Below, in pieces: positions 15,732 to 46,183 of a DNA stretch of 60,401 nucleotides. Source of the DNA: a virus; the IMG/VR virus record IMGVR_UViG_3300027974_000040, positions 1 through 60,401 of that record; one strand, given 5' to 3'. Within the stretch, counting starts at the first letter, position 1. Every line of letters starts with the position of its first letter. The notes beneath the pieces are model-generated. The model saw only the letters and a program-made list of their open reading frames with translations, made no database searches and was not told the DNA's origin. The translations under genes were made by a program, and so were the position numbers.

Positions 15732-15765
15732 AACTCCCTATCGGTTTGGTTGTTTCACTAGTTGT
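15732..15765 (-). promoter_or_regulatory. Class A promoter, leaderless start at 15731
   Basis: CAAC-N17-CGATA, start codon 7 nt after CGATA. A perfect DnaA box (15774-15782) lies 8 nt upstream, with a second one in the opposite orientation at 15787-15795. Confidence 0.75.
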
Positions 15766-15841
15766 GTGGTACTTTATCCACAGGGATGTGGATAAGTTAG
15801 GTATCATGGTATCCACACTTACAACTAGCGAGGTTTCTATC

Positions 15842-16090
15842 ATGCGTAAACTCACCCCAGAACAGCGAGAAGTCAAGAAGTTAGCCTATCTCGCCGAAAA
15901 CGCCGTAGCCGAGGAGCACACCCACGACGAAAACTGTGGACACTTAGAGGTAGCCCCAGTAGCCGAGGAAGCCCCGTCTGCTGAAGTGCCTACTGAGGAC
16001 GCTTCTCCCGAGGAAGCCCCAGCCGACGATAAGCCAAAGCGTAAGTCCACAAAGAAAGCCGACGCTGAAGAGACTTCAGAAGAAGTCTGA
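15842..16090 (+). CDS. Acidic, Ala/Pro/Glu-rich small protein
   Basis: 82 residues from the ATG at 15842. After a basic helix (RKLTPEQREVKKLAYL) comes EEHTHDENCGHLE, a His/Cys cluster that may bind metal, then a long Ala/Pro/Glu stretch and a Lys/Thr/Glu tail; most of it looks disordered. It is a lone forward gene among reverse ones and converges on 16115. Unknown function. Confidence 0.55.
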   Translation: MRKLTPEQREVKKLAYLAENAVAEEHTHDENCGHLEVAPVAEEAPSAEVPTEDASPEEAPADDKPKRKSTKKADAEETSEEV

Positions 16091-16114
16091 GAAGCCTCAC
16101 GGGTGACCTACGGG

Positions 16115-16852
16115 TCATACATCCACCTTCGGTAGCAGTCCCAACTCAACCAGTTTGTCGTTCACTTGAGTCTCTAACCAGCCGAGAACATCACTGTCAA
16201 GTTCGCTCATCTCGTCCCAAGCGTCGTAGCCGACAGCACTTACGCCAGTCTCTATGTCCTTGTCTATCCTCGCATAGTCCTCACGGAACTGTTCGGGAAC
16301 TTTGTTGGGTTCTAGTTCGCAACCAGCCTCAGCGACCATCTCGCCATTACTGAACGCCGAAACACAAGAGAACGAGCGACCTTCCTCGTCAGATGAAACC
16401 GTGAACAGAAGTGTCGGGAACTGCCTGCTCACTTCACGGATAAGTCCGTCAGCAGGTGACCACGCAGTTTCGTAGTACGCATAGATACCAGCACCGCCAT
16501 CAAAGTGGTCAATGATTTCCCATTCCTCAATACGAGGCGACCACTTCGTACCCCAGTTCTCAATAGCCCAGTCATACCAAGTGGTGTGACCGTACTCCGC
16601 CTTATTTGCTTCGTACTTTTTGAGAAGTTCTTGATATTCAGGGTCAGTGCTATCGGTATTAAACATGACGGCACGAATAGCCAACGGTTCAGGAACAGGG
16701 AACAAGACAGATAGGTCGTAGTCCACTTGCTCAACGCCCATTGTTGTCTCAGCGAGCGACGAGTCGTACTGACGGGTAATCGCTTCAGTGAGTTTGACTA
16801 GTGAGTCACGGTCACCCGCAACATTCATTCGGTTATAGCACCAGTTCGGCAT
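16115..16852 (-). CDS. YubB/Api92-like ferredoxin-fold protein (DUF1281-like)
   Basis: 245 residues beginning MPNWCYNRMNVAGDRDSL, the 'MPNWC.N.l.V.G' opening of the DUF1281/YubB/Api92 family found on phages, plasmids and aphid endosymbiont phage APSE. Conserved aromatic segments follow (WYDWAIENWGTKW and YAYYETAWSPADGLI). The family is widespread on mobile elements but has no known activity. The start follows an AAAGGGGA site. Confidence 0.8.
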   Translation of the reverse strand: MPNWCYNRMNVAGDRDSLVKLTEAITRQYDSSLAETTMGVEQVDYDLSVLFPVPEPLAIRAVMFNTDSTDPEYQELLKKYEANKAEYGHTTWYDWAIENWGTKWSPRIEEWEIIDHFDGGAGIYAYYETAWSPADGLIREVSRQFPTLLFTVSSDEEGRSFSCVSAFSNGEMVAEAGCELEPNKVPEQFREDYARIDKDIETGVSAVGYDAWDEMSELDSDVLGWLETQVNDKLVELGLLPKVDV

Positions 16853-16880
16853 AGTAGTCCCCTTTAGTAGTAGTGTTTGT

Positions 16881-16915
16881 ACTTTCAGTGAACAGTCTAG
16901 TTATTGTAATAGCAA
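16881..16915 (-). promoter_or_regulatory. Class B promoter, leadered
   Basis: TTGCTA (16910-16915), 17 nt, TTCACT (16887-16892), predicted start at 16880. It is followed by a 27-nt leader with AAAGGGGA before the ATG at 16852. Confidence 0.65.
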
Positions 16916-16964
16916 CCCGACTAGATGGATTTATCAGGGGCAGGTTTCCCCACCCCTGACACAA

Positions 16965-17306
16965 TCACTTCTTGACGGTGACCTTCTTGGCAGTCGCCTT
17001 CTTGACGGCTACCTTCTTGTTCGCCTTCTTGTTTGCCTTCTCCGCAACACGAGTCTTGGTTGCTTCCACGCCCAAGTACATCATGTAAACAGTATGAGTC
17101 TTGCCATCGCTATTCGCACGAACGGCGATTTTGAGGTTACCCATCTTGCTCGCCACTGTGTAGTAGTAGGAGATGTGATTGGCACTACGGGTATAGACAG
17201 CCCACTTGTCGGGGGTCTCGCTCAGTTTGGTGATGAACTCTTGTACAGCCCCGCCACTGCGTCCACGCTTGGCGACGGTGGGGTTCTCAAATACGATGCG
17301 CTTCAT
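16965..17306 (-). CDS. Small protein with histone-like Lys/Ala tail
   Basis: 113 residues. The globular part (1-75) has several beta strands with Tyr runs (ISYYYTVASKMGNLKIAV). The last 35 residues are almost pure Lys/Ala/Val/Thr (KKANKKVAVKKATAKK), like histone H1 tails, and suggest nucleic-acid binding. The start overlaps the upstream stop. Confidence 0.65.
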   Translation of the reverse strand: MKRIVFENPTVAKRGRSGGAVQEFITKLSETPDKWAVYTRSANHISYYYTVASKMGNLKIAVRANSDGKTHTVYMMYLGVEATKTRVAEKANKKANKKVAVKKATAKKVTVKK

Positions 17307-17695
17307 TTAATTGTTTCCTTTGTTTCTGTGGCAAAGTTGCCGTTGTTGATTTGGTTCAGCAGTCGCTGAATGAGGTCGGCATTAACCGACCCATTTTCCC
17401 GAGAAGCGTCAATCGCTCGTTGAGCAATCTGCTCTCGGACTGTCATTGCTTGTGTTGGTATGACTTCTGTAGGCACTGGCTCGCTCTTGAGTTCCACCTT
17501 GCGGCTTTCCATCCAACGAGAGCCTTCGCCGTTAAGCGGCTCAACGCAGAGGTCTAGTCGTCCAAAGGACTGGCGAGCGTCAATCACCTTGATAGTGAAG
17601 GTCATGCCCGTTAGTCCGATACTTCCCTCTAGTCCCTTGTATGCGTCAAAATCAACAGTGCCGTTTGGCTTGCGAACAATGTTTGTTGTATTCAT
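17303..17695 (-). CDS. Hypothetical protein
   Basis: 130 residues from the ATG at 17695, which follows AAAGGGAAAT and a class B-like promoter; the longer frame upstream has no site. The first half looks beta-rich (GSIGLTGMTFTIKVIDARQSFGRLDLCVEPL) and the second helical (VREQIAQRAIDASRENGSVNADLIQRLLNQI). No family recognised. Confidence 0.6.
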   Translation of the reverse strand: MNTTNIVRKPNGTVDFDAYKGLEGSIGLTGMTFTIKVIDARQSFGRLDLCVEPLNGEGSRWMESRKVELKSEPVPTEVIPTQAMTVREQIAQRAIDASRENGSVNADLIQRLLNQINNGNFATETKETIK

Positions 17696-17716
17696 ATTTC
17701 CCTTTCGTTTACTTGA

Positions 17717-17751
17717 TAGTTGATAATAAGAACAGATAGGCGTAATCACAA
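17717..17751 (-). promoter_or_regulatory. Class B-like promoter with TATTAT -10
   Basis: TTGTGA (17746-17751), 17 nt, TATTAT (17723-17728), predicted start at 17716. A short leader with AAAGGGAAAT precedes the ATG at 17695. Confidence 0.6.
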
Positions 17752-17770
17752 CCTGAGTGACTAACGACAC

Positions 17771-18004
17771 TCATAGTGCTAAGTCAGACCACTCTTCATA
17801 AGTGCGACCAAGCGAACGAACAAGTTCACCATCTTCAAAGAAGTCCAAAACAATACCTTCTTCAGTAAACACAACACAACACACGGGTTGCTCGTATTTT
17901 GCGTCGGGGTCTGTAGGTAACTGTACGATTACCTCTTTACGAGAGTCTTTAGCACAATCAAAGTCCATACGGATGACCCCCCTATAATCGTGGTATTCAC
18001 TCAT
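17771..18004 (-). CDS. Hypothetical small protein
   Basis: 77 residues from the ATG at 18004, chosen because AGGAGAGTGACG precedes it and it overlaps the upstream stop. Beta-rich with a CC pair (QPVCCVVFTEEGIVLDFFEDGELVRSLGR). Part of a coupled reverse operon. No family recognised. Confidence 0.6.
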   Translation of the reverse strand: MSEYHDYRGVIRMDFDCAKDSRKEVIVQLPTDPDAKYEQPVCCVVFTEEGIVLDFFEDGELVRSLGRTYEEWSDLAL

Positions 18005-18272
18005 CGTCACTCTCCTCAACTAGGCGAGTGTATTCGTCGTCCTTCATTTCATAAAGAGCGAAAGCGTCCTCACCCGTTAGAGATACAAGAGCGTCCACGC
18101 ATACTCCAACGACCTTGACATTCTCGGTATCTTCCCATACGGGGTTCACATCAACCCGAATGGGGAAGTCAATGAATGAGTTTTCCATATCCTCGTACTT
18201 GTAGTCGTCGGGGACTTGAGTCTCAATGGATACGATGAGTTCGTATGTTTGTGTAACGGTGATAGTTCTCAT
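17997..18272 (-). CDS. Hypothetical small protein
   Basis: 91 residues from the ATG at 18272, on an ATGA overlap with the upstream gene. The opening MRTITVTQTYELIVSIET is a strand pair, followed by an acidic region with DDYKYEDMENSF. Resembles the 'Y.v.v..' small proteins at 19880 and 20074 in its start, but is longer. Confidence 0.55.
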   Translation of the reverse strand: MRTITVTQTYELIVSIETQVPDDYKYEDMENSFIDFPIRVDVNPVWEDTENVKVVGVCVDALVSLTGEDAFALYEMKDDEYTRLVEESDDE

Positions 18273-18583
18273 CGTGCGAATGTCACCCCAATAGTGAACA
18301 GTTCCTCGGCGGTCTGAATGAACCACTCATGGTCGTTGTCGGTGAGTTCTTTCGTCATGTACGAAACCTTGACGCACGGGTAGTCCGTGATGGGGTGAGA
18401 GGAGATGATTGCCCAGCCTCGCTCGTCCGACCACTTCTCAATGTTGGCATACGACTGAACATCGTAAGCATTGCGACGAATGTTCGCTCGTAACCGATGG
18501 ACTTGCTTGTTGCTGTATTCACGGATTTGTTGCCAATACCAAGAGTTGTCGGCGTTCCGTACGGATAGGTCTATTTCACGCAT
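18269..18583 (-). CDS. Hypothetical small protein
   Basis: 104 residues from the ATG at 18583, which follows AAGGAGACTCTGTA and overlaps the upstream stop (TAATG). Tyr/Trp-rich start (NSWYWQQIREYSNKQV) and a later HEWFIQTAEELF helix. No family recognised. Confidence 0.6.
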   Translation of the reverse strand: MREIDLSVRNADNSWYWQQIREYSNKQVHRLRANIRRNAYDVQSYANIEKWSDERGWAIISSHPITDYPCVKVSYMTKELTDNDHEWFIQTAEELFTIGVTFAR

Positions 18584-18939
18584 TACAGAGTCTCCTTGAT
18601 GTTCTCGCCGTATTCGGCTTTGCCGTGCTTCGCTTCGTCGTAACACTCGGTATGAAAGTTGCCGTAGTGGTACTTGTCACTCTCGTCCTGATAATCCACA
18701 CGGGTTTCGCAGTCAAGGTAAATCGGCTTATCGCACTCGTCGCACCCATACCCAGCGCACTCGGCACACGCATACCCGTCTTTGTATTCGCCCGTTTCCT
18801 CGTCCATAGTGTCAGCAGGAATACGGTTCACGAACTTGCCGACGAGCGTTCCGTCCTCACGGACAGAGCCAAACGCAGTGGGTTCTCCGCAATGGATACA
18901 AGGGTCAATGATGGTGGTCACGATTGGTTCACCCGCCAT
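18583..18939 (-). CDS. Zinc-ribbon-like cysteine-rich protein
   Basis: 118 residues with CIHC near 14-17, then CAEC, CDEC, a further YLDCET and HTEC, enough for two or three zinc sites. The 'GYACAECAGYGCDECDKPI' block is reminiscent of DnaJ-type and LIM-type zinc knuckles but does not match either fully. It overlaps its upstream neighbour by 22 nt. Confidence 0.6.
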   Translation of the reverse strand: MAGEPIVTTIIDPCIHCGEPTAFGSVREDGTLVGKFVNRIPADTMDEETGEYKDGYACAECAGYGCDECDKPIYLDCETRVDYQDESDKYHYGNFHTECYDEAKHGKAEYGENIKETL

Positions 18940-19124
18940 TCGGATTGAGGTGAACAGCCAAGGTCAAAATAGTCCTCTAGTCCCTCTGCCGTTCCGCAGT
19001 CTGAACAGATGTAGGTCTTGTTATCGGTGCGTGATAATGCTCCGATGTACTGACCTCGCTGTAAGTCATTAGGGATACCCCCGAAACAACGAGGGCAAGT
19101 GTGTTGGTCAAGTGTGATGGTCAT
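18918..19124 (-). CDS. Small zinc-finger protein, leaderless
   Basis: 68 residues with HTCPRCFGGIPN and YICSDCGTAEGLEDYF, a two-CxxC zinc ribbon. The 'G.....ALSR.d..T.iCsdCGt.Eal.D' pattern is widespread in small actinophage zinc-ribbon proteins. The ATG lies 6 nt after a class B -10 at the predicted transcription start. Confidence 0.7.
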   Translation of the reverse strand: MTITLDQHTCPRCFGGIPNDLQRGQYIGALSRTDNKTYICSDCGTAEGLEDYFDLGCSPQSEWRVNQS

Positions 19125-19159
19125 AAGTTCATTGAACTCTCTATTAGTAGTAACAACAA
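19125..19159 (-). promoter_or_regulatory. Class B promoter, leaderless start at 19124
   Basis: TTGTTG (19154-19159), 17 nt, TTCAAT (19131-19136), 6 nt, ATG. AATAAATCT lies upstream. Confidence 0.75.
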
Positions 19160-19173
19160 CCTGTCGGACAGAT

Positions 19174-20259: not shown

Positions 20260-20294
20260 AGTTACAGTGAACTCCTTATTAGTAGTAATAACAA
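20260..20294 (-). promoter_or_regulatory. Class B promoter, leaderless start at 20259
   Basis: TTGTTA, 17 nt, TTCACT, 6 nt, ATG; GAAATCT upstream. Confidence 0.75.
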
Positions 20295-20313
20295 CCTCAC
20301 GGGTGAGATTTCT

Positions 20314-20958: not shown

Positions 20959-21342
20959 TTATTCAATGGGCGTACAACGGAGATGAGCAACGCCGTCCTC
21001 ACCGTAGGAAGTTGGTTGGTCGCCGTCATACTTGCCACCCATCGGGTCACCGCATTGGTCGCACGAATGTCCGTCCTGCCAAGAGATAGGCTCACGGAGA
21101 GTCCCCAAACTCACCCAGTTGGAGAAGTCGGTATTCCATTCACCATTAGTGAATGTCATCGGGTAGGCATTGACACGGATTTCCTCGCTCATATCGGAAC
21201 GCCAAATGTTGATATCCCAATCGTTGTCATAGGACTCCCACCAATCGTCGGAGAACTCCAAGTAGCCGACGGTGGCAAGTTTGTTCTTAGCCCATTCCAT
21301 AATGGCAATGGCTGTTGCTTCGGGCATAGTAAGTGTGTTCAT
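20959..21342 (-). CDS. Hypothetical protein with CxxC...C, leaderless
   Basis: 127 residues. The C-terminal part has HSCDQCGDPMGG ... HLRC, a possible zinc site; the N-terminal part is helical with Trp/Asp-rich segments. Its start lies at the predicted transcription start of class A (21343-21376), and a class B promoter lies further upstream, so two promoters may serve it. Confidence 0.6.
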   Translation of the reverse strand: MNTLTMPEATAIAIMEWAKNKLATVGYLEFSDDWWESYDNDWDINIWRSDMSEEIRVNAYPMTFTNGEWNTDFSNWVSLGTLREPISWQDGHSCDQCGDPMGGKYDGDQPTSYGEDGVAHLRCTPIE

Positions 21343-21376
21343 AGTGGGGTATCGGTTCTGCTATTTCGTTAGTTGG
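21343..21376 (-). promoter_or_regulatory. Class A promoter without DnaA box, leaderless start at 21342
   Basis: CCAAC-N17-CGATA, then 7 nt, ATG. The upstream flank is AATAAAAACTGA instead of TGTGGATAA. Confidence 0.7.
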
Positions 21377-21394
21377 GTCAGTTTTTATTTTTGG

Positions 21395-21450: not shown

Positions 21451-21533
21451 CCTCGCTAAATGATTTATCCAAAGACTCAGACCGAGCCCCGCATTTTTAT
21501 TCAGTTGTCCACAGCCTGTGGATAAAGTTACGC

Positions 21534-21567
21534 CCAACTACGGTAACTGCCTAACCGATACTTAGAT
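21534..21567 (+). promoter_or_regulatory. Class A promoter without start codon
   Basis: DnaA box 21517-21525, 8 nt, CCAAC-N17-CGATA; the predicted start position is AAA, not ATG. A class B promoter follows 17 nt later and serves the gene at 21641. Confidence 0.65.
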
Positions 21568-24418: not shown

Positions 24419-24516
24419 GCTTGTAGAAGCAATCATCACGGGTGCGCTCACGGGTGATGCACGGCTACTACATATGTGCCGACCTGTCGTCCACAGTCCT
24501 GTGGATAAACTTACAC

Positions 24517-24550
24517 ACAACTACTGTAACTCTTATACCGATACACGGAT
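24517..24550 (+). promoter_or_regulatory. Class A promoter without leaderless ORF
   Basis: DnaA box 24500-24508, 8 nt, ACAAC-N17-CGATA. The expected start codon position is GGG; an ATG two bases earlier opens only 10 codons. A class B promoter follows for the gene at 24646. Confidence 0.65.
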
Positions 24551-26359: not shown

Positions 26360-26373
26360 CGAACACTTGTTCG
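26360..26373. promoter_or_regulatory. LexA-type SOS box
   Basis: CGAACACTTGTTCG, identical to the first box of the origin array, lying 23 nt upstream of a DnaA box and the tandem A/B promoters of the gene at 26534. Confidence 0.65.
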
Positions 26374-26412
26374 CCCCTAGCGGTTGTCCACAGGCTGTGG
26401 ATAAGTTTCAAG

Positions 26413-26446
26413 ACAACTAACGAAACTGTTGTACCGATACACAGGT
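26413..26446 (+). promoter_or_regulatory. Class A promoter without start codon
   Basis: DnaA box 26396-26404, 8 nt, ACAAC-N17-CGATA; the expected start is ATA. A class B promoter follows at 26499. Confidence 0.65.
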
Positions 26447-27358: not shown

Positions 27359-27376
27359 GTCCGAATAAATAACCGA

Positions 27377-27410
27377 ACAACTAGCGAAACTTCCTAACCG
27401 ATAGGTATAT
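27377..27410 (+). promoter_or_regulatory. Class A promoter without DnaA box, leaderless start at 27411
   Basis: ACAAC-N17-CGATA, 7 nt, ATG; AATAAATAAC flank. Confidence 0.75.
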
Positions 27411-30070: not shown

Positions 30071-30130
30071 AGCCCCCTGCCAACTACGGATACGGGGCTC
30101 CTGCTTCTGAGTCTGTGGATAAACTCTCAA

Positions 30131-30164
30131 CCAACTACCGTAACGAGAGAACCGATACTTGGGT
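30131..30164 (+). promoter_or_regulatory. Class A promoter, leaderless start at 30165
   Basis: DnaA box 30114-30122, 8 nt, CCAAC-N17-CGATA, 7 nt, ATG. Confidence 0.8.
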
Positions 30165-30373: not shown

Positions 30374-30649
30374 ATGGACGCACCTGAAATCCCCGAAGGC
30401 TTACAGTTCTATTTCCCCGTGATGGCGGAGATGCGGGACGGGCAACTGCGTTTCGTCGTACAGCCTGACATAGCCATTGACTCACAGCGAACCATTTGGA
30501 ACGACAGCGAGATGGAGTGGAGCCCCGTTACAGAGGAACTAGAGCAAGCAGACCTCGCAATCTACAAAATCCTACAAGGTCTTGTGGATAACTCTGTGGA
30601 TAAACCATCAACCAACTACCGCAATACTGATACCGATACATACTTATGA
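30374..30649 (+). CDS. Small protein whose C-terminus is encoded by a promoter
   Basis: 91 residues from the ATG at 30374, 2 nt after the previous stop. The last 21 residues (LVDNSVDKPSTNYRNTDTDT and two more) are encoded by two DnaA boxes and the class A element that start the next gene. Rest is beta/helix with no recognised family. Confidence 0.55.
   Translation: MDAPEIPEGLQFYFPVMAEMRDGQLRFVVQPDIAIDSQRTIWNDSEMEWSPVTEELEQADLAIYKILQGLVDNSVDKPSTNYRNTDTDTYL
30612..30645 (+). promoter_or_regulatory. Class A promoter with two DnaA boxes, start at 30646
   Basis: DnaA boxes 30583-30591 and 30595-30603 (12 nt apart), 8 nt, CCAAC-N17-CGATA, 7 nt, ATG. It lies within the coding end of 30374-30649. 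Confidence 0.8.
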
Positions 30650-31068: not shown

Positions 31069-31310
31069 GTACGCCACTAGACAGAGCCGACAAAGTAATG
31101 GAATACTTCCGCAACCTGAGTTGGGAAGCGGACGGATACGGGACTCCTGATGGCGACCCCCGCAATAGCGAGGAACTACTCATTGACCTTATCTGCGACC
31201 TCTACCATTGGGCGTGGGAAGTGGACGAGGACTTTGAGAACTGCGTCGCCGTCGCAATCAAAAATGGCAGAACCCAACGAGCCGTCATCGCCTTCAGTAA
31301 GGGTGAATAA
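31065..31310 (+). CDS. Hypothetical small protein
   Basis: 81 residues from the ATG at 31065 (ATGA overlap). Helical with DLICDLYHWAWEVDEDFENCVA. Unknown function. Confidence 0.55.
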   Translation: MSTPLDRADKVMEYFRNLSWEADGYGTPDGDPRNSEELLIDLICDLYHWAWEVDEDFENCVAVAIKNGRTQRAVIAFSKGE

Positions 31311-31318
31311 AAAGTGAC

Positions 31319-31352
31319 CCAACTAAAGAAATCACGAAACCGATAGGGATAT
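31319..31352 (+). promoter_or_regulatory. Class A promoter without DnaA box, start at 31353
   Basis: CCAAC-N17-CGATA, 7 nt, ATG; GAATAAAAAGTGA flank. Confidence 0.8.
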
Positions 31353-32177: not shown

Positions 32178-32443
32178 CCTTAGCGACGGTACTCAGCGGT
32201 GGTCGGGCGTTGCCGTTCAACCCGTACCCGATTGTCGTTCGGCAGTCCCGTTATGGGGGCGCATACGAAGATGGTGCTTGGTTCGCTATTGCTAACTGTC
32301 ACGAAATACCCGAAGAGGCAATATCCGAGGACTCCGAGTGTCAAGAGTTTTGGTTGAGTGAAAAAGCGCAGTTCATTGGGCGCGGGGCTACGCCGAACGA
32401 CGCAGTCATAGACCTCGTCAGCCGTAACTCAAATAAACTTTGA
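32174..32443 (+). CDS. Hypothetical small protein
   Basis: 89 residues, ATGA overlap. Beta-rich opening (PYPIVVRQSRYGGAYEDGAWFAI) and a GATPNDAVIDLV end, like HicB-type or 'YGG..E.G.w.A......p.....D..eF' small mobile-element proteins. HicB identity is not claimed. Confidence 0.55.
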   Translation: MTLATVLSGGRALPFNPYPIVVRQSRYGGAYEDGAWFAIANCHEIPEEAISEDSECQEFWLSEKAQFIGRGATPNDAVIDLVSRNSNKL

Positions 32444-32444
32444 C

Positions 32445-32478
32445 CCAACTAATGAAATACCCGAACCGATAGGTAGGT
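32445..32478 (+). promoter_or_regulatory. Class A promoter without DnaA box, start at 32479
   Basis: CCAAC-N17-CGATA, 7 nt, ATG; AATAAACTTTGA flank. Confidence 0.8.
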
Positions 32479-33346: not shown

Positions 33347-33633
33347 TTATTCAACTGCGACGAACAAGTGTTCTGCTTGTCAGCAAACTTGTATGCTTCT
33401 CGCAAAGTGGAAAACTGCTGGAACTTACCTACGGTTTTAATTCTTCCTGTTTCCCAATCAATCACACGAACCGAGTAACAACGAACTCCCGAGGGGCCCC
33501 GCTCTGAGGTTGTGAAGTGAAACCCGTGAGTAGTCCTGTAAACCTTGCTGTTAAAGAAGTTGATTGTTTCCACATCAAAGAAGTGTTCATCTGCCTCTAT
33601 GTTGCGTTTTTTAATTTCTTTGATTGTCGGCAT
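33343..33633 (-). CDS. Conserved phage small protein ('HFF-E-FF' type)
   Basis: 96 residues: EIKKRNIEADEHFFDVETINFFNSKVY ... CYSVRVIDWETGRIKTVGKFQQFSTLREAYKFA. The same order (HFF....m.FF.s........F..se........y.vr..d..tg.i.tvg.F......a...A) occurs in small proteins on many actinophages and plasmids. Function unknown. It is a lone reverse gene. Confidence 0.65.
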   Translation of the reverse strand: MPTIKEIKKRNIEADEHFFDVETINFFNSKVYRTTHGFHFTTSERGPSGVRCYSVRVIDWETGRIKTVGKFQQFSTLREAYKFADKQNTCSSQLNN

Positions 33634-33668: not shown

Positions 33669-33777
33669 AAGCGTTGCGTTATGAAGCCGGGGCTTCCCCC
33701 GTGCGTACACGCATCGTGAAATGTATGGCGTACTTATTGAAATCATCCTGTGGATAAATCTGTGGATAAACATTGAG

Positions 33778-33811
33778 ACAACTAACGCAATCGCCTAACC
33801 GATACTCAGAT
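33778..33811 (+). promoter_or_regulatory. Class A promoter with two DnaA boxes and no ORF
   Basis: DnaA boxes 33749-33757 and 33761-33769, 8 nt, ACAAC-N17-CGATA. The start position is G of GTAGCC, with no ORF following. Confidence 0.7.
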
Positions 33812-34045
33812 GTAGCCCACCAGCAACATCGGGGGGCGGACATAGCACCGCAAGCCTCTGAAGGTTACGACCGCCTCTGAGTATGCGATACTGGCTCTAC
33901 CTGTCCTAGGCGGTGTACCCAGTCCCTCCATCACTCACGCCACCCTCTGCCCGACACGCACCCGCAAGGACTATGAACGCCTCGGCTCTCTATCTAGATG
34001 GAGAGCAACCGATGGAGAGTCGCCCTCTCGTTGGTGGGCTTCTCT
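33812..34045 (+). ncRNA. Candidate non-coding RNA downstream of class A
   Basis: A 230-nt stretch with no sensible frame begins at the predicted start of a class A promoter. It can fold two good hairpins near the 3' end: GCTCTC...GAGAGC with an inner ATCTAGAT (33985-34006), and GAGAG-TCGCC-CTCTC (34016-34030). No known RNA family is recognised. The next class A promoter begins right after it. Confidence 0.4.
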
Positions 34046-34067
34046 ATTCCTGTGGATAAACTTTGAC

Positions 34068-34101
34068 CCAACTAAGGAAATCACCGAACCGATAGATGAA
34101 T
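34068..34101 (+). promoter_or_regulatory. Class A promoter, leaderless start at 34102
   Basis: DnaA box 34051-34059, 8 nt, CCAAC-N17-CGATA, 7 nt, ATG. Confidence 0.8.
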
Positions 34102-35468: not shown

Positions 35469-35502
35469 ACTCACTTATCGGTTCGGGAGTTTTATTAGTT
35501 GT
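35469..35502 (-). promoter_or_regulatory. Class A promoter, leaderless start at 35468
   Basis: DnaA box 35511-35519 at 8 nt, ACAAC-N17-CGATA, 7 nt, ATG. Divergent from the next class A copy. Confidence 0.8.
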
Positions 35503-35539
35503 CTCAGAACTTATCCACACCTTGTGGATAAACAAACAC

Positions 35540-35573
35540 GCAACTAACGAGATACCCATACCGATACATAGAT
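35540..35573 (+). promoter_or_regulatory. Class A promoter, leaderless start at 35574
   Basis: DnaA box 35523-35531, 8 nt, GCAAC-N17-CGATA, 7 nt, ATG. Back-to-back with the reverse copy; only 3 nt separate the two DnaA boxes. Confidence 0.8.
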
Positions 35574-35954: not shown

Positions 35955-36320
35955 ATGGCTGTCTATAACATCAACATAACCTTCACCACAGATGACGACG
36001 CAACTGACTTGGAACTCGGCGACTTGACCATTGGTATAGCGGACATACTCAACTGCCCGCAGGTTGAGAGCCCCGATGGTGAGTGGGTTACAGCCGATTA
36101 CGAGATTGACTCTTTTGTCTTGGACTTATACGAGGATAGCGGTGACCGTGTGTGGCGACATACGCTGAACCCACACAGATTATTGGAGATGGTTCACCAA
36201 CAAAACCTTCCTCATTGGAATGACTCTTTGCCAGAAAACGAAGAGCGGTCACGCTCGGATGCGGGACTCGGGTGGCTCAACCGACTGTTCGGGCATAAGA
36301 ATAAAAAGTCGCCCAACTAA
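35955..36320 (+). CDS. Hypothetical protein
   Basis: 121 residues behind CTCGGAGAACTCA. Acidic and beta-rich first half (INITFTTDDDATDLELGDLTI), then helical, basic tail. The end (KKSPN) is encoded by the next class A element. Promoter not obvious. Confidence 0.6.
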   Translation: MAVYNINITFTTDDDATDLELGDLTIGIADILNCPQVESPDGEWVTADYEIDSFVLDLYEDSGDRVWRHTLNPHRLLEMVHQQNLPHWNDSLPENEERSRSDAGLGWLNRLFGHKNKKSPN

Positions 36321-36346
36321 CGAAACTCCCATACCGATAGATAGGT
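36313..36346 (+). promoter_or_regulatory. Class A promoter with leader
   Basis: CCAAC-N17-CGATA, no DnaA box (AATAAAAAGTCG flank). Predicted start at 36347, then 26 nt with GAGAGGGAG before the ATG at 36373: one of the few class A copies with a leader. Confidence 0.7.
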
Positions 36347-37221: not shown

Positions 37222-37572
37222 GTGAACACAACACATCGCAGGATGTTCTTGCTTGCTGGCTATTTGACCTCTGTTTACATAGGCGCAATAGCAACCTATG
37301 GAGTCACAGAACACCACAATGCTTGGGACTCTGCTTGGTGGGGAATGATGACGCTTACCACTGTTGGCTACGGCGACGAGTACCCTCACACTGTCAGTGG
37401 CAGGATTATGGGCATACTGTTAGTTATGTCTGCCGTGTTCGTGGTTGTACCAACGATTACGGCGTTCATCGCAACCAAGTTCATAGTTGATGACGACGCT
37501 TGGACTCACGACGAACAAGAGCAAGTCAAAGACGACCTCAAAGAAGTCTTGAGAATACTCAAGGGCGAATAA
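37222..37572 (+). CDS. Two-TM potassium channel-like protein
   Basis: 116 residues with a leaderless GTG start. TM1 spans 8-27; a pore helix (about 34-45, AWDSAWWGMMTL) leads to the selectivity filter TTVGYGD at 46-52; TM2 spans 60-84; an acidic/basic coil follows (96-114). This is the KcsA-like pore domain with all filter residues intact; four copies would form a K+-selective channel in the host membrane. It is close to minimal size, like viral Kcv channels, although those come from algal viruses. Confidence 0.9.
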   Translation: MNTTHRRMFLLAGYLTSVYIGAIATYGVTEHHNAWDSAWWGMMTLTTVGYGDEYPHTVSGRIMGILLVMSAVFVVVPTITAFIATKFIVDDDAWTHDEQEQVKDDLKEVLRILKGE

Positions 37573-37580
37573 ATAATGAC

Positions 37581-37614
37581 CCAACTAACGGAATAGTGAT
37601 ACCGATATATGGAT
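37581..37614 (+). promoter_or_regulatory. Class A promoter without DnaA box, start at 37615
   Basis: CCAAC-N17-CGATA, 7 nt, ATG; GAATAAATAATGA flank. Confidence 0.8.
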
Positions 37615-38218: not shown

Positions 38219-38340
38219 ACTTGTTGCGTAACACAAGAACGGGGCTCCGCCCCCGCATACGCACGAGGGCGCACGCTCGCACGCACCCGCTGGGGACACC
38301 ACCCCGTGGGCGAGTGGCGACTCTGTGGATAAGTGGCGAC

Positions 38341-38374
38341 CCAACTAACGCAACACCCGAACCGATACTTAGGT
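38341..38374 (+). promoter_or_regulatory. Class A promoter, leaderless start at 38375
   Basis: DnaA box 38324-38332, 8 nt, CCAAC-N17-CGATA, 7 nt, ATG. Confidence 0.8.
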
Positions 38375-38533: not shown

Positions 38534-38748
38534 CACCGAGCGCACATAGCCCCCAACACAGGGGCGCAGGGGCTTGACCCCAAGGTAGGGGGGCTGGATA
38601 AGCCCCCTAGTGCCGTTCTCGGAAACATCACACACGACCCCACGACCGCATTGGCGTGACAGCCCCGAGTTTCCATTCCGCCCCGTTTCGTTCGGCACAC
38701 AGGTGCGGGGCTCTCATTCGCACGCACCGACCCCGAATAAATAACCAC

Positions 38749-38782
38749 CCAACTAACGAAACATCGCAACCGATACCTAGAT
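38749..38782 (+). promoter_or_regulatory. Class A promoter without DnaA box, start at 38783
   Basis: CCAAC-N17-CGATA, 7 nt, ATG; GAATAAATAACCA flank. Confidence 0.8.
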
Positions 38783-39447: not shown

Positions 39448-39479
39448 CACTGTGGATAAACCTGTGGATAAACTTAGAC

Positions 39480-39513
39480 ACAACCAACGCAACGACAGAA
39501 CCGATACCTGAGT
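39480..39513 (+). promoter_or_regulatory. Class A promoter with two DnaA boxes, start at 39514
   Basis: DnaA boxes 39451-39459 and 39463-39471 (12 nt apart), 8 nt, ACAAC-N17-CGATA, 7 nt, ATG. Confidence 0.8.
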
Positions 39514-39879: not shown

Positions 39880-40097
39880 GCAAAATGACAAACTCACACA
39901 ACATCATTGACGACACCGCAACTATTGTTGAGATGGCAGTCGGAGAGCGGGACTTAGAAATCACCGCCATCCGCAAGTCACTCGCAATTATTGATGGCGT
40001 ACTGAAGGACATCGGCAACACGAACATCTGTTCGTCATCGGAAATGACCGACTCTCTCCTTGACTTGCGCAACATACTCAAACCACTCTTAGACTGA
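39876..40097 (+). CDS. Hypothetical small protein
   Basis: 73 residues, helical (DDTATIVEMAVGERDLEITAIRKSLAIIDGVLKDI). A LexA-type box (40021-40034) lies inside the gene. Unknown function. Confidence 0.55.
   Translation: MSKMTNSHNIIDDTATIVEMAVGERDLEITAIRKSLAIIDGVLKDIGNTNICSSSEMTDSLLDLRNILKPLLD
40021..40034. promoter_or_regulatory. LexA-type box inside a gene
   Basis: CGAACATCTGTTCG matches the CGAAC-N4-GTTCG consensus. It lies within 39876-40097, about 160 nt before the next class A start, so it may be coincidental. Confidence 0.4.
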
Positions 40098-40147
40098 GAA
40101 GCCCCGAGTTTCGAGCACATCTTCGTTGGGTGTGGATAAACTCTCGC

Positions 40148-40181
40148 CCAACTAATAGAATACTGAAACCGATACACAGGT
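40148..40181 (+). promoter_or_regulatory. Class A promoter, leaderless start at 40182
   Basis: DnaA box 40131-40139, 8 nt, CCAAC-N17-CGATA, 7 nt, ATG. Confidence 0.8.
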
Positions 40182-40405: not shown

Positions 40406-40426
40406 CCCAAGCGAATAAATAATGAC

Positions 40427-40460
40427 CCAACTAACGTAACTCTCATACCGATACATAAGT
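40427..40460 (+). promoter_or_regulatory. Class A promoter without DnaA box, start at 40461
   Basis: CCAAC-N17-CGATA, 7 nt, ATG; GAATAAATAATGA flank. Confidence 0.8.
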
Positions 40461-41123: not shown

Positions 41124-41157
41124 AATAAGGTATCGGTCTCAGTGTTGCGGTAGTTGT
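41124..41157 (-). promoter_or_regulatory. Class A promoter, leaderless start at 41123
   Basis: DnaA box 41166-41174 at 8 nt, ACAAC-N17-CGATA, 7 nt, ATG. Divergent from the next. Confidence 0.8.
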
Positions 41158-41195
41158 GCGGCACTTTATCCACAGCCCTGTGGATAAACTCTGAC

Positions 41196-41229
41196 CCAAC
41201 TAAGGGGATAGACATACCGATACCCAAGT
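41196..41229 (+). promoter_or_regulatory. Class A promoter, leaderless start at 41230
   Basis: DnaA box 41179-41187, 8 nt, CCAAC-N17-CGATA, 7 nt, ATG; back-to-back with the reverse copy, only 4 nt between the two DnaA boxes. Confidence 0.8.
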
Positions 41230-41699: not shown

Positions 41700-42064
41700 T
41701 AACTAATCTCAACCAAGCAATTCCCTGTCAGTGGTCAGCCTCACGCCAAACGGTGTGGGGCTGATTACTATGTCGGGGCTGTGAAGGTACTCAAAAACGG
41801 AGTGCTATCACCCCTAGGCAACCCACCCAGTACCCCTGTTTCCCGTGCCTCTGGAGTCCCGTCTTTTGTCGTTGATTTTGTTGTTAGAAAAGACCAGCGT
41901 AACGGCTATTTATTTCCGTGCCTGTGGGCATTTTCCTTTCCGCCACCGTCGTTGGTTGCGCAACACATAATCGGGTTGTAAACCCGGGGCTATCCGTACC
42001 GAGTAAACACTCCTGCGAAACTGCTGATATGAGCCTGTGGATAAATCTGTGGATAAACTTCTAG
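41700..42064. other. Non-coding stretch
   Basis: About 365 nt without a convincing gene; a GTG frame at 41781-41981 runs through motif C and is probably chance. It holds motif C (41936), several CGGGGCT heptamers and two DnaA boxes of the next promoter. Confidence 0.5.
41936..41950 (+). repeat. Motif C copy
   Basis: Exact CTTTCCGCCACCGTC followed by GTTGGTTGCGC. Confidence 0.7.
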
Positions 42065-42098
42065 CCAACTAACGCAATACTGAAACCGATACTTAGAT
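42065..42098 (+). promoter_or_regulatory. Class A promoter with two DnaA boxes and no ORF
   Basis: DnaA boxes 42036-42044 and 42048-42056 (12 nt apart), 8 nt, CCAAC-N17-CGATA. The start position is ATC with no following ORF. Confidence 0.7.
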
Positions 42099-42264: not shown

Positions 42265-42299
42265 ATAATGCTATTTCCGCCCTGTGGATAAATCCATAG

Positions 42300-42333
42300 A
42301 CAACTAACGGAACTCTGATACCGATACCTAGGT
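42300..42333 (+). promoter_or_regulatory. Class A promoter, leaderless start at 42334
   Basis: DnaA box 42283-42291, 8 nt, ACAAC-N17-CGATA, 7 nt, ATG. Confidence 0.8.
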
Positions 42334-42501: not shown

Positions 42502-42603
42502 GTAGTTGATAAGGGGGTGAGGGGCAACCCTTCCCCCCAAACCATTACACGAACACAGAAACGGGGCTATCATTCCCCTAGATTTACCGAAAGGACAACC
42601 CTC

Positions 42604-42888
42604 ATGAAGCACGACAATCTCCATTACACCCTACCCAGCGGAGATACTTTCTCTATGACCGCTATTGACGGGCGTTACGAAGTCGCCGTGTTGCGCACCA
42701 GTAGCCCCGATTTCTCCTTTGTCCCTGTGGCAGAGTGGCTTGGGAAAGAACACGATAATGGTGATGACATCTATCCCACCAGTAATGATGCGAAAGTGCT
42801 CATTCAGATACTCGGGGCTGCTATCAAGTGGTCGGAGTGGGAAAAGGCACGCCTCTTGATACTTGCCATTGACCAATCACTATCCTGA
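42604..42888 (+). CDS. Hypothetical small protein
   Basis: 94 residues from the ATG at 42604 behind GAAAGGACAACC. Beta-rich start (LHYTLPSGDTFSMTAIDGRYEVAVLRTSS), helical end. Unknown function. Confidence 0.6.
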   Translation: MKHDNLHYTLPSGDTFSMTAIDGRYEVAVLRTSSPDFSFVPVAEWLGKEHDNGDDIYPTSNDAKVLIQILGAAIKWSEWEKARLLILAIDQSLS

Positions 42889-42906
42889 CTGTGGATAAAG
42901 TGTTAC

Positions 42907-42940
42907 CCAACTAGCGTAACTCCCAAACCGATATCTGAGT
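42907..42940 (+). promoter_or_regulatory. Class A promoter, leaderless start at 42941
   Basis: DnaA box 42890-42898, 8 nt, CCAAC-N17-CGATA, 7 nt, ATG. Confidence 0.8.
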
Positions 42941-43117
42941 ATGAGCGAGATAAGCATAAAACACCTGACACTTCGCACGAAAGCCAAGTACGGCTGGAGT
43001 ATGCCGTTCAGTGAGGCTTACACCCTAGAGCGACACCTCAACGGCGTAAGCCACGACAGAGCGTTTCGTGAGGCAATGAACAACCCCTTAGTCAAGCAAG
43101 GCGACAAGCCAAAGTAA
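42941..43117 (+). CDS. Small protein, paralogue of 32874, leaderless
   Basis: 58 residues: WSMPFSEAYTLERHLNGVSHDRAFREAMNNP shares order and the 'LnGvSHDRA...AM..P' block with 32874. Supported by the leaderless class A start. Unknown function. Confidence 0.65.
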   Translation: MSEISIKHLTLRTKAKYGWSMPFSEAYTLERHLNGVSHDRAFREAMNNPLVKQGDKPK

Positions 43118-43189
43118 GGGGAATACCTCTGCTATCACCGCCGTTGCGTGACCGTAGAAACGGGGCTACTATTCCCTGAGAGTCAAACT

Positions 43190-43262
43190 GTCTCAGTGGC
43201 GCAATGGATAGCGCAACAGACTTCTAATCTGTAGGTTGTAGGTTCGACCCCTGCCTGAGACG
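43190..43262 (+). tRNA. tRNA-Arg (anticodon TCT)
   Basis: Acceptor arms GTCTCAG/CTGAGAC pair fully; D-arm GCGC...GCGC; anticodon stem ACAGA/TCTGT with loop CTTCTAA (anticodon TCT, 43223-43225); T-arm with GTTCGACC. No CCA is encoded. It reads AGA, a rare codon in many GC-rich actinobacteria, so it may help translate AGA-containing phage genes. 73 nt. Confidence 0.95.
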
Positions 43263-43277
43263 CAAGAGTCCCCATTT

Positions 43278-43475
43278 TCATTCCCCCGAAGAGTCCCACG
43301 CTTTCCAACGAGGCTTCTCTACAAATCTAAATAAACCCTGCGAACCCTCGGGACGGGGCTGCGTCAGCGTCGTATCCAGCCAAAGTCGGGCGACATCACG
43401 GCACAGAAACTCCACCTCAGCCTCAAGGACAGCCAACTTGGCATCCAATTCAGCGAAACGGTCGTTTAAGTCCAT
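43278..43475 (-). CDS. Coiled-coil small protein
   Basis: 65 residues: MDLNDRFAELDAKLAVLEAEVEFLCRDVARL has a clear heptad pattern, then a basic tail. It converges on the tRNA. Unknown function. Confidence 0.5.
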   Translation of the reverse strand: MDLNDRFAELDAKLAVLEAEVEFLCRDVARLWLDTTLTQPRPEGSQGLFRFVEKPRWKAWDSSGE

Positions 43476-43551
43476 ATGCCCAATGTAGCACGGGGAGCCC
43501 CGGTTGCGAAGTCCCCCTATAGGGCGATAATCTGCCCGAATAAAAAGTGAC

Positions 43552-43585
43552 CCAACTAACGAAACAGACCAACCGATACCTAAGT
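43552..43585 (+). promoter_or_regulatory. Class A promoter without DnaA box, start at 43586
   Basis: CCAAC-N17-CGATA, 7 nt, ATG; GAATAAAAAGTGA flank. Confidence 0.8.
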
Positions 43586-43933
43586 ATGGAAATCAACATC
43601 ACATACCGCCCACTGACAGGAAGTATCTCTGCGTGGAATACGCTTGACGACATTATGTCTGACATAGACCGCAAAGACATTGAGCGTGCCTACCAAGACG
43701 GTAACGATGAGGGCTGGTTCGTCGCTATGGACACCTACAAGGGTCATTTTCACTCTGTCACAGTCCTTGACTGTCACGGTGCTGGTGCTGGCTGGAACTT
43801 GTTTCTCACGGAACGACTGAACGACAGCACGATTAGTGCCATCTACGAGCAGGTCACTAAGTGGGAAACTGCGACCTCTAGCGATATAGCAACCCGAGTT
43901 CTCACTCACTACCGAACAACGGTGAGCGTCTGA
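43586..43933 (+). CDS. Hypothetical protein, paralogue of 36741, leaderless
   Basis: 115 residues: YRPLTGSISAWNTLDDIMSDIDRKDIERAY ... FHSVTVLDCHGAGAGWNLFLTERLNDS, aligned along its whole length with 36741. The stop overlaps the next start (TGATG). Unknown function. Confidence 0.65.
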   Translation: MEINITYRPLTGSISAWNTLDDIMSDIDRKDIERAYQDGNDEGWFVAMDTYKGHFHSVTVLDCHGAGAGWNLFLTERLNDSTISAIYEQVTKWETATSSDIATRVLTHYRTTVSV

Positions 43934-44232
43934 TGGAACGGTATCACCACTACATTCTGAAGTTGGTCAAGGTTTCTGCCGACCAATGGGACAACGAGCA
44001 GGTCGGTAAAACCGTCTATCGGGGCTCATTTCGGGACATTCACGACTCTGCTATCACCGCTCTGAACGCTCTTGGTGGTGGAGATGAGTACCGTGTCTAT
44101 ATCGGGCGCGAAACCTACGACCCCCAATGGCAGGACTACTTTGCCGACGAGCGTATGGAACACCTCGTTATCAGCGTTTCTGCTGGTCAGGAGCAGATTA
44201 CTGTTCTGAACGAAGGCTTCCTCGTCCACTAA
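43933..44232 (+). CDS. Hypothetical small protein
   Basis: 99 residues, TGATG overlap. Strand and helix pattern with YIGRETYDPQWQDYFADERMEHLVISV. Unknown function. Confidence 0.55.
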   Translation: MERYHHYILKLVKVSADQWDNEQVGKTVYRGSFRDIHDSAITALNALGGGDEYRVYIGRETYDPQWQDYFADERMEHLVISVSAGQEQITVLNEGFLVH

Positions 44233-44271
44233 AAGGGAACACAGACGATAAAAGCGGGCGTATTTCCCTCA

Positions 44272-44508
44272 ATGGATATCAACTCCAGTGTTGGCAAACT
44301 CTCTAATACCTACAAGAGACAGAAAGACATCACTATGGAGAACGACATACAAGACGAAGAGCAAATCAAGTTCCGTATTACATGGACGGGCTATGACGAC
44401 AAGCAACACTCACGGGTAGTCCCGTTATCGTGGTCAAGCAAGTACATGATGCTGATGAAGGGTATGACAAGGGATAACGAAAGTATCAGAGTAGGAGAAG
44501 TGAACTAG
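44272..44508 (+). CDS. Hypothetical small protein
   Basis: 78 residues; the ATG at 44335 is an alternative start. The conserved-looking part is FRITWTGYDDKQHSRVVPLSWSSKYMMLMKGM. TAGTG overlap with the next gene. Unknown function. Confidence 0.5.
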   Translation: MDINSSVGKLSNTYKRQKDITMENDIQDEEQIKFRITWTGYDDKQHSRVVPLSWSSKYMMLMKGMTRDNESIRVGEVN

Positions 44509-44768
44509 TGAGCCTGAGCGACATCACCGAACCAACCGAAGTCCTCGTCTCAATAAACGGGGCTACCGCATCTAAGAGAACCCGCAACCGAGTGAAAGAA
44601 CATGGACCTCGCTTCGTCTATGTGCCGAACAAGAACCGTGCTGACCAAATCCTCTTGAAAGGGGTTAATGGGAAGGGATGGAATGGCTGGCTATCCCTAT
44701 GGGAAATCAAGGTAAGCCGAGCCCCGTCGGAAAGCACACCTGAGGAAATGGGTGCTATACACCTTTAG
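44508..44768 (+). CDS. Hypothetical small protein
   Basis: 86 residues, GTG start with TAGTG overlap. A basic middle (ASKRTRNRVKEHGPRFVYVPNKNRADQILLKG) and Trp-rich end. Unknown function. Confidence 0.5.
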   Translation: MSLSDITEPTEVLVSINGATASKRTRNRVKEHGPRFVYVPNKNRADQILLKGVNGKGWNGWLSLWEIKVSRAPSESTPEEMGAIHL

Positions 44769-44991
44769 ACCTCACGGAGAGTGGTGAAGAATCACGCTCT
44801 GCGTTCGCAGCAAAAGACCTGATAGGGGACGAAATACTTGCGAATTCTCGGCATTTTCAAATATTTCGGAGTTTTGTCGCTCTTTTAGCCCCCTACGACC
44901 CCCAATATCACTCAGATAGATTTATCTAAGCGTGTTAGTGGGATGCGGGACTCTCACTCTCGGTGGTTTTCTCACTCAGAGTGGTCGCCCA

Positions 44992-45186
44992 CTAGTGGGA
45001 GTTGTGGGCACAGGCGTAGTCCCCGTCGCAGGCTGAGGTGCATTCGCCCCCCATGAGAGCGTCACGGGTGAAGCACTCGTCGCACAGGTTCCAAAAGAAC
45101 TCGTCATGGTCGTACCAGTCCATGGTTGGCTCGTGGAGACTACAGGCATCGCACAGGGGGGAGGGGGTGTAGGTGGAGTGGCTCAT
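44992..45186 (-). CDS. Cysteine/histidine-rich small protein, leaderless
   Basis: 64 residues: LCDACSLHEPTMDWYDHDEFFWNLCDECFTRDA ... CTSACDGDYAC. Eight cysteines with CxxC pairs suggest two zinc sites. ATG at the class A start. Unknown function. Confidence 0.6.
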   Translation of the reverse strand: MSHSTYTPSPLCDACSLHEPTMDWYDHDEFFWNLCDECFTRDALMGGECTSACDGDYACAHNSH

Positions 45187-45220
45187 GTCTATATATCGGT
45201 AGGAGTATTACGGTAGTTGT
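45187..45220 (-). promoter_or_regulatory. Class A promoter with near-DnaA box, start at 45186
   Basis: TTATTCACA (one mismatch, 45229-45237) at 8 nt, ACAAC-N17-CGATA, 7 nt, ATG; divergent from the next. Confidence 0.7.
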
Positions 45221-45257
45221 CTCATACTTTATTCACAACCTGTGGATAAACATTCGC

Positions 45258-45291
45258 CCAACTAAGGTAACGGCTGTTCCGATACCTAAGT
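45258..45291 (+). promoter_or_regulatory. Class A promoter, leaderless start at 45292
   Basis: DnaA box 45241-45249, 8 nt, CCAAC-N17-CGATA, 7 nt, ATG. Confidence 0.8.
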
Positions 45292-45498
45292 ATGAACAAC
45301 CTCACCTACTCAGTCAATCTAGAAACCAACATCATCTCTGTCACGGCTGTCGTGACCGACGGTAAAGCCTGTGGAGCCTTTGAGTTCACTCGTGAGTACC
45401 CCTTTGATGACATCGGTTCGTGGCTCATCTCGTTCGCCTACGACCTCCGCTATGCGGGCAAGACACTCCACTCCCGTGAGTACGAAGGGGCAGTGTGA
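45292..45498 (+). CDS. Hypothetical small protein, leaderless
   Basis: 68 residues, strand-rich (LTYSVNLETNIISVTAVVTDGKACGAFEF), ending DDIGSWLISFAYDLRYAGKTLHSREYEG. Unknown function. Confidence 0.6.
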   Translation: MNNLTYSVNLETNIISVTAVVTDGKACGAFEFTREYPFDDIGSWLISFAYDLRYAGKTLHSREYEGAV

Positions 45499-45580
45499 CG
45501 GTTCGGGCTGGATAGGGGAGCGAGTCAGCCCCGGAGATTCGGTACTTGCTTCTCAACGGCTTTGTGGGTAGGGTGCGGAC

Positions 45581-45796
45581 ATGAAACATCAACCGCTCCT
45601 CAATGGACTTGTCTATCTGATTCGTATCGCTCCTGTGCGGGGCTCTGAGGTTCTGGGGACGCTGGAGAATAAAGCCACGGGTGAAGTTGTCTTTGAATCA
45701 GTGTTCCCTTCTTACAAAGATGCTTACTGGGCGTTGATGGAGATGGATGGCAATGAGTTCCTTGGTTCTCTTGCGAGTCGCCCTCTCTCTGTGTGA
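45581..45796 (+). CDS. Hypothetical small protein
   Basis: 71 residues: LNGLVYLIRIAPVRGSEVLGTLENKATGEVVFESVFPSYKDAYWALMEM. Possibly a single small beta-alpha domain. No clear promoter. Unknown function. Confidence 0.5.
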   Translation: MKHQPLLNGLVYLIRIAPVRGSEVLGTLENKATGEVVFESVFPSYKDAYWALMEMDGNEFLGSLASRPLSV

Positions 45797-46002
45797 TTGT
45801 CTCTATGCTGGTGAGCCCCGTTCTTTCCATTGAGGAAGAAATGTTTCGCCTTCTTCGTAAGGATGGTGGGAGATGCCACGGTTTGCCCTTTCAAATGGCT
45901 CCATCCTCCCTCCCTTTCAGCATCTAGTCGTTTCGCTTCTAGATGTATGCGCTTTTCCATTGCGAGCACGAAGGGGAGGGCGAATCTCCTATCAGCAAGT
46001 TG

Positions 46003-46017
46003 CTTTCCACCACCGTC
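46003..46017 (+). repeat. Motif C copy
   Basis: CTTTCCACCACCGTC (one change) followed by ATTTGTTGAG, in the non-coding stretch 45797-46149, where I see nothing else. Confidence 0.65.
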
Positions 46018-46149
46018 ATTTGTTGAGGGTAGATTTATCGGGACTCTTACCCCTTATACCTTATAAGCGTCACATCTATATCATTTTGATATGTTTGTGC
46101 CTTCGTGTAAATGTAGGGTCTACTTCTCAGCCTGTGGATAAACTATCTG

Positions 46150-46183
46150 ACAACTAGCGTAATACTGTTACCGATACTAAGGT
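46150..46183 (+). promoter_or_regulatory. Class A promoter, leaderless start at 46184
   Basis: DnaA box 46133-46141, 8 nt, ACAAC-N17-CGATA, 7 nt, ATG. It is the last class A copy on this side. Confidence 0.8.

Follow-up and report, generated by a model that had tools for sequence, protein, structure and literature searches.

In bacteriophage lambda, DnaA boxes lie downstream of the promoter pR. They are also found downstream of pO (PMC3985674), and activation of phage transcription at pR/oriLambda is reported to rely on host DnaA, for which a contact with the RNA polymerase beta subunit has been proposed (Szalewska-Palasz et al. 1998, cited in PMC8203912 and PMC3985674). In E. coli, DnaA-regulated promoters such as those of nrdA, glpD, polA, fliC and dnaA carry boxes within or upstream of the promoter, with pairs 2 to 3 base pairs (bp) apart, and DnaA acts on them as activator or repressor (PMC8203912, PMC11317965). 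DnaA has so far appeared as an occasional transcription factor, used by lambda at one locus. Here we describe a phage sequence of 60,401 bases from a freshwater virus of probable actinobacterial host (IMGVR_UViG_3300027974_000040; the window, which is the complete IMG/VR virus record, with open record ends) in which most promoter-like elements of a single type, named class A, have a DnaA box locked immediately upstream. This arrangement, and the retention of the boxes in a sister virus whose adjoining promoter has changed, suggests that the virus switches its genes by means of host DnaA.

The phage resembles E. coli in the presence of boxes at promoters and in their close pairing, and resembles lambda in its apparent reliance on host DnaA. 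It differs from both. The E. coli promoters are a compact scattered set with boxes at varied positions, whereas the phage has one promoter type with one exact distance in 21 of 30 cases; lambda has low-similarity boxes at one locus, whereas here perfect boxes lie upstream of many promoters. The start-associated sequences of Cluster K phages and the stoperators of L5 are likewise repeated elements before many small phage genes, but neither is known to be a DnaA box held in register with a complete -35/-10 promoter. As far as the open-access literature shows, a phage promoter class with a perfect DnaA site at one base-exact distance in two thirds of its members would be the first such case on a genome-wide scale.

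The exact 9-mer TGTGGATAA occurs 33 times in the window compared with 0.45 copies expected from dinucleotide shuffles, and 33 was reached in none of 100 shuffles. An earlier model-made reading of the DNA (the sequence-only reading) had stated that a given 9-mer should occur by chance less than once in 60 kb, which agrees with this expectation. Six copies form an array at 11978-12257 and 27 lie between 15.7 and 46.2 kb, the region of small genes, while the exact 9-mer is absent from 1-11,900, 12,301-15,700 and 46,201-60,401. Phages that have a related helicase and lack the class A promoter type showed a mean of 2.2 boxes per 60 kb over 46 loci.

A matrix scan of the window defined the class A set as exactly 30 elements, which follow roughly the pattern NCAAC-TA-nn-G-n-AA-N8-CCGATA, or NCAAC-N16-CCGATA overall. 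All 30 have a -35 block of the CCAAC type and a -10 block CCGATA. A box is present in 21 of them, 20 with exact TGTGGATAA and one, the minus-strand element at 45220, with TGTGAATAA; the DnaA 9-mer consensus TTATCCACA is accordingly matched exactly in 20 of the 21 boxes and with one mismatch in the other. The distance from the end of the box to NCAAC is 8 nucleotides (nt) in every boxed element. The 8-nt lock in 21 elements, one with a mismatch, had been claimed from the letters, and both matrix and pattern scans bear it out with no exceptions. The strict whole-element pattern gave 20 matches in the window and the reversed-pattern control none. In the nine elements without a box, AATAAA stands in the register of GATAAA.

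An ATG follows CCGATA by 7 nt in 24 of the 30 elements, and 23 of these ATGs start a reading frame of 38 codons or more. Because this distance is constant, the class A transcripts are probably leaderless. With the A of the ATG as +1, CCGATA occupies -13 to -8, NCAAC -34 to -30 and the box -51 to -43, as in the plus-strand element at 46133..46176, whose ATG begins at 46184. At six of the 30 elements the usual coding start is missing, and small RNAs are possible there.

The sister phage G001 (IMG/VR 3300027732_000054, a 39-kb record) has 31 class A-like elements, and a perfect box is found in 25 of them, always 7 nt before TGAAC. A count of boxes and spacings in related genomes had been put forward as a check on the lock; the fixed register in G001 and the 2.2 boxes per 60 kb of the helicase relatives are its outcome. 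Orthologous promoters were found in G001 for 29 of the 30 window elements, two of which correspond to the same G001 site (8378). In 18 orthologous pairs with a box in both phages, 161 of 162 box positions (99%) and 107 of 108 positions of CCGATA agree. Identity is 65% over the 20 nt that precede the box and only 29% in the linker from box to -35, about the level of unrelated sequences. All window elements have a -35 block of the CCAAC type and all G001 elements have TGAAC, and the one-nt change in box spacing goes with this change of block in all promoters. Since block and register shifted while box and CCGATA were conserved, the reader of the -35 would have changed between the phages, and those of the box and the -10 would not.

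Box and AATAAA are exchanged between the two phages. In six of the 29 orthologous pairs only one phage has a box, and in five of these the other phage has AATAAA. The window has AATAAA and G001 a box at 27377, 37581, 40427 and 43552 (elements 27364..27403, 37568..37607, 40414..40453 and 43539..43578, all +), and the reverse holds at 34068 (34051..34094, +). The sixth pair, at 40148 (40131..40174, +), is boxed in the window and has neither box nor AATAAA in G001. The other box-less elements of the window, each with AATAAA in the same register, are located at 21350..21389 (-), 31306..31345 (+), 32432..32471 (+), 36300..36339 (+, with the ATG missing at the usual place) and 38736..38775 (+).

The boxes are often paired. 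A second box, tandem or inverted, accompanies 14 of the 21 boxed window elements, ten at a gap of 3 nt and four at a gap of 4 nt, and no other gap was found up to 25 nt; G001 has second boxes at gaps of 3-4 nt in 17 of 25 elements, plus one at 2 nt. Second boxes on the same strand exactly 12 nt further up, as had been reported before, were confirmed in the plus-strand elements 30583..30638, 33749..33804, 39451..39506 and 42036..42091, the last of which lacks the ATG at its usual place. The element at 33749 is followed by a start with an immediate stop (ATG-TAG, 33810-33815), and the same start-stop is seen near 8414 (+) in G001. Beyond that earlier description, we found inverted second boxes and the DnaA-box array at 11978-12257. 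In the minus-strand element 15739..15782 (box 15774-15782) the inverted second box is at 15787-15795, with a gap of 4 nt; in 21517..21560 (+) and 26396..26439 (+), both without the usual ATG, an inverted TTGTCCACA lies 3 nt upstream. Divergent elements bring their boxes together in inverted orientation at 35476..35519 (-) and 35523..35566 (+), with a gap of 3 nt, and at 41131..41174 (-) and 41179..41222 (+), with a gap of 4 nt. Element 45194..45237 (-), which carries the one-mismatch box TGTGAATAA, is divergent from 45241..45284 (+), whose box-bearing promoter reads TCCGATA. Further boxed elements, all on the plus strand, lie at 24500..24543 (no coding ATG at the usual place), 30114..30157, 38324..38367, 42283..42326 and 42890..42933. 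E. coli DnaA favours boxes paired at a distance of 2-3 bp, and a change of this spacing leads to loss of binding (PMC11317965); the 4-nt gap of the window is one beyond this preference.

The array at 11978-12257 contains six exact TGTGGATAA and about ten one-mismatch DnaA boxes, in all 16 boxes with at most one mismatch, many of them 12 nt apart and including the DnaA-type variants TTATCAACA and TTATACACA. A cluster of DnaA boxes with weaker variants among them is typical of oriC, and the array is oriC-like by sequence. A search for the DnaA C-terminal domain found no DnaA gene in the phage records. DnaA is present in five of five candidate acIV host genomes, and TGTGGATAA/TGTGGACAA boxes adjoin its gene in those examined. 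DnaA as the ligand of the boxes is well supported because the 9-mer is the universal one, the pair spacing is strict, the phage has an oriC-like array, the box is conserved in G001 and the same boxes stand beside dnaA in candidate hosts. Of the earlier proposal that the phage uses host DnaA as activator, senses DnaA-ATP or titrates DnaA, the ligand has thus held up well, and activation, DnaA-ATP sensing and titration are things that we infer.

We think it rather probable that host DnaA bound to the box activates the class A promoters, which would be of a non-housekeeping type, with AATAAA as a substitute and with a link to the phage origin and to DnaA titration. Class A elements would be phage promoters, mostly for leaderless small genes. 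In two thirds of them DnaA, single or paired, would bind the consensus box, which spans about -51 to -43 and so comes right before the -35, and from there it could contact polymerase and recruit or stabilise it; in the remaining third the AT-rich AATAAA would do the job of DnaA at the same place. As phage copies rise, their boxes, at least 33 exact ones per genome, may soak up DnaA and so lower both the class A promoters and host initiation. Because the phage has an oriC-like array, its replication and its class A genes probably answer to the same host protein. If true, this would be a simple phage sensor of the replication state of the host and of its own copy number. The mechanism of DnaA activation has been described as poorly understood (PMC11317965), and dozens of promoters of the same geometry, with a one-nt spacing variant and exchanges of box and AATAAA, make a natural test set for it.

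Several observations weigh against this view. The sequence fits activation and repression alike, and the second box is missing in seven of the 21 boxed elements, whereas E. coli DnaA in most cases requires two boxes. The shared element described below and actinobacterial marks are the only pointers to the candidate host. No Sigma70_r2 domain was found in 12 phage records, which are fragments, and a profile of the candidate host sigma factor gave no match in the phage records, also fragments, so that no fitting sigma factor was found.

DnaA binds consensus boxes and can activate or repress (PMC8203912), and the main rival is a role as repressor or delay switch. DnaA would then block upstream contacts of polymerase, and the genes would come on when replication dilutes DnaA or shifts it to DnaA-ADP. 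Repression by DnaA is known at several promoters (PMC8203912, PMC11317965), and the register of the box and the geometry of the pairs are compatible with either sign. The box, however, lies upstream of the -35 and overlaps neither -35 nor -10, and a fixed register with replacement by AATAAA suits an activator or UP-like element, whereas repressors tolerate varied positions. We regard repression as unlikely. Somewhat less likely again is that the boxes are operators of a phage regulator preferring TGTGGATAA, as in the multi-operator actinophages, with DnaA uninvolved. Repeated operators are common in phages, the relative L048 has about 40 copies of a different word, CTAATAGATAAC, and among the products of the window are small candidate DNA-binding proteins, for instance the helicase-associated (HA)/helix-turn-helix protein at 11099-11476; against such a regulator stand the universal DnaA consensus, the DnaA-like pair spacing, the oriC-like array and the same boxes beside dnaA of the candidate hosts.

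It is improbable that the boxes serve mainly to titrate DnaA from the host origin, with their location at promoters incidental. Each genome copy does bring at least 33 sites of predicted high affinity, and datA is known to titrate DnaA in E. coli (PMC11317965), but titration would need no fixed register to the -35, no joint shift of register and no replacement by AATAAA. A promoter role is favoured over titration alone because the register to the -35 is fixed. The phage also encodes three WhiB-like proteins, which bear on the idea, raised in the sequence-only reading, that the GATAAA/AATAAA core alone counts. The activator WhiB7 has an AT-rich site ahead of the -35. An AT-rich upstream element for the C-terminal domain of the polymerase alpha subunit (alpha-CTD) or for a WhiB-type activator, WhiB7 being one that binds the primary sigma factor SigA (PMC3905903), would account for AATAAA taking the same place in box-less elements, but we consider it very improbable that the rest of the 9-mer is decoration, since all 46 boxed elements of the two phages keep TGTG, the base that follows the box varies in G001 (A, C or G), and the pair geometry would be left unexplained.

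Which polymerase would read a DnaA-activated class A promoter can be approached from its core. Sigma-A promoters show TAnnnT at -10, and promoters of the sigma-28/FliA/WhiG type have TAAA at -35, a spacer of N15 and GCCGATAA at -10. The class A core is unlike a sigma-A promoter in having no TAnnnT at -10; CCGATA and the spacing fit sigma-28, while the -35 does not show TAAA. Promoters of extracytoplasmic function (ECF) sigma factors are characterised by AAC in the -35 and CGT in the -10 (PMC8103513). The AAC is present, as CCAAC in the window and TGAAC in G001, and the short spacer is shared as well, but CCGATA in all 30 window elements lacks CGT, and for this reason class A is not assigned as a proven ECF promoter. 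A fixed upstream DnaA box, moreover, is not known to belong to any ECF promoter described in that review (PMC8103513). We infer that the core is read by a non-housekeeping RNA polymerase holoenzyme, ECF-like or sigma-28-like. A helicase relative, L023, has 12 GGTTG-N16-CCGATA elements without exact DnaA boxes at sites between 119 and 9258. As L023 keeps N16-CCGATA with GGTTG, the -10 and the spacer appear to persist while the -35 module is exchanged. The L023 elements (AGGTTGTGATTA..AT-AACCGATA) have a -35 module like a second repeat class of the window and a -10 like class A. This second class, AGGTTGTTRTTACTACTA..TAGG..GTTCACTG, stands before genes, often with ATAAATCT about 10 nt upstream, at 15231 (-), 19161 (-), 20296 (-), 20946 (-), 21452 (-) and 23006 (+), and occurs in G001 too.

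A scan of 84,980 bacterial genomes for the box, -35, spacer and -10 gave three matches, two of them convincing. Both convincing matches belong to freshwater acIV-type Actinobacteria; they have the same position in the records BJGB01000015.1 and WLTJ01000016.1 and are of the G001 type (N8-GAAC). When two mismatches were allowed, a scan of 222 family genomes matched only the same two places. The third match, in the Saprospiraceae bin L103, lies in coding-like sequence of 37% GC and looks like chance. The acIV element precedes an operon that encodes a macro-domain protein together with two further proteins, 215 and 204 residues long, in which Pfam weakly recognises sigma region 4, so that the only convincing host copies stand before two ECF-like sigma genes. 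ECF sigma factors have no domains other than sigma2 and sigma4. The best PDB matches of the profile of the host sigma-like proteins are sigma factors (E 0.002-0.02). A low-confidence fold model of the host sigma best matched ECF sigma factors of M. tuberculosis, and because the model is weak (mean predicted local distance difference test, pLDDT, 47) this is taken as no more than supportive. No viral homolog of the host sigma was found. The class A core alone was at control level in five acIV genomes, except for one perfect copy in each of two, which rules it out as a general host promoter type.

Homologs of the operon occur in at least eight further genomes, and the module, in which a macro-domain protein is joined by a pair of ECF-like sigma factors, is conserved in Ilumatobacter-type Actinobacteria (L104, L105 and L140-L147). 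In the closest relative, G067, whose first sigma shares 92% identity, about 370 nt that include the element are missing and a conventional-looking promoter near the gene is kept. PADLOC returned nothing for the macro-domain or sigma proteins, and neighbouring genes weakly match defence-associated families. Phage and host might share a private promoter code of DnaA and an ECF-like sigma, with the phage depending on the host sigma pair together with DnaA, or the host having set a phage-type promoter before a response operon to serve as an infection alarm; we offer this tentatively and hold it to be doubtful.

The host was assigned from the shared element, the three WhiB-like proteins and LexA-type boxes of actinobacterial form. 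The WhiB-like proteins, encoded at 50408-50689 (-), 55069-55377 (+) and 58195-58554 (-), point to an actinobacterial host. A tRNA-Arg was uninformative as a host marker, its best identity being 79-84%. The LexA-type palindromes (CGAAC-N4-GTTCG) stand four in a row at 11901-11978, directly before the DnaA-box array, and SOS control of the origin region is possible; more of them are found near phage genes at 26360-26373, 33361-33374 and 40021-40034.

Exact pattern scans of IMG/VR recovered only the near-duplicate of the window, G001, G002 and a single match in L175; the evidence on class A comes from two phage lineages, one with a near-duplicate. A loose scan for box...CCGATA...ATG gave mostly single, chance-like matches. 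The exception was an unrelated virus record of 34.6 kb (G235), in which TGTGGATAA precedes the TTG -35 of four TATAAT promoters by 12-13 nt, at 16221-16270 (-), 16723-16772 (-), 16915-16964 (+) and 21022-21072 (+), compared with 0 in the control. This record surfaced in a scan that required the box and so is uninformative on frequency; one of its four copies lies outside the scan pattern. Box-locked promoters may have arisen in phages on more than one occasion. A distant blastn search with one window gene against named phages gave no match. In L048, several copies of CTAATAGATAAC precede a repeated promoter-like stretch, 'ctagtctgtac'.

Among the other genes of the window, the protein at 11099-11476 (+), near the array, combines a helicase-associated DNA-binding domain with a sigma-region-4-like helix-turn-helix. 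The protein at 9036-9446 (-) matches phage replication-initiation families (phrog_16167 and the O-like phrog_18020), and for this reason the phage may also own an initiator. PHROG scans of the window proteins showed no terminase, capsid or tail protein among the matches listed. A MoxR/CobS-like AAA ATPase followed by a 496-amino-acid partner is encoded at 12951-15184 (-) and is conserved in G001, and a surface-lipoprotein-like protein at 1314-1784 (+) matches superinfection-exclusion families. The right end of the record at 60401 is an inverted repeat of the sequence at about 46419, and may represent an assembly end or a terminal feature.

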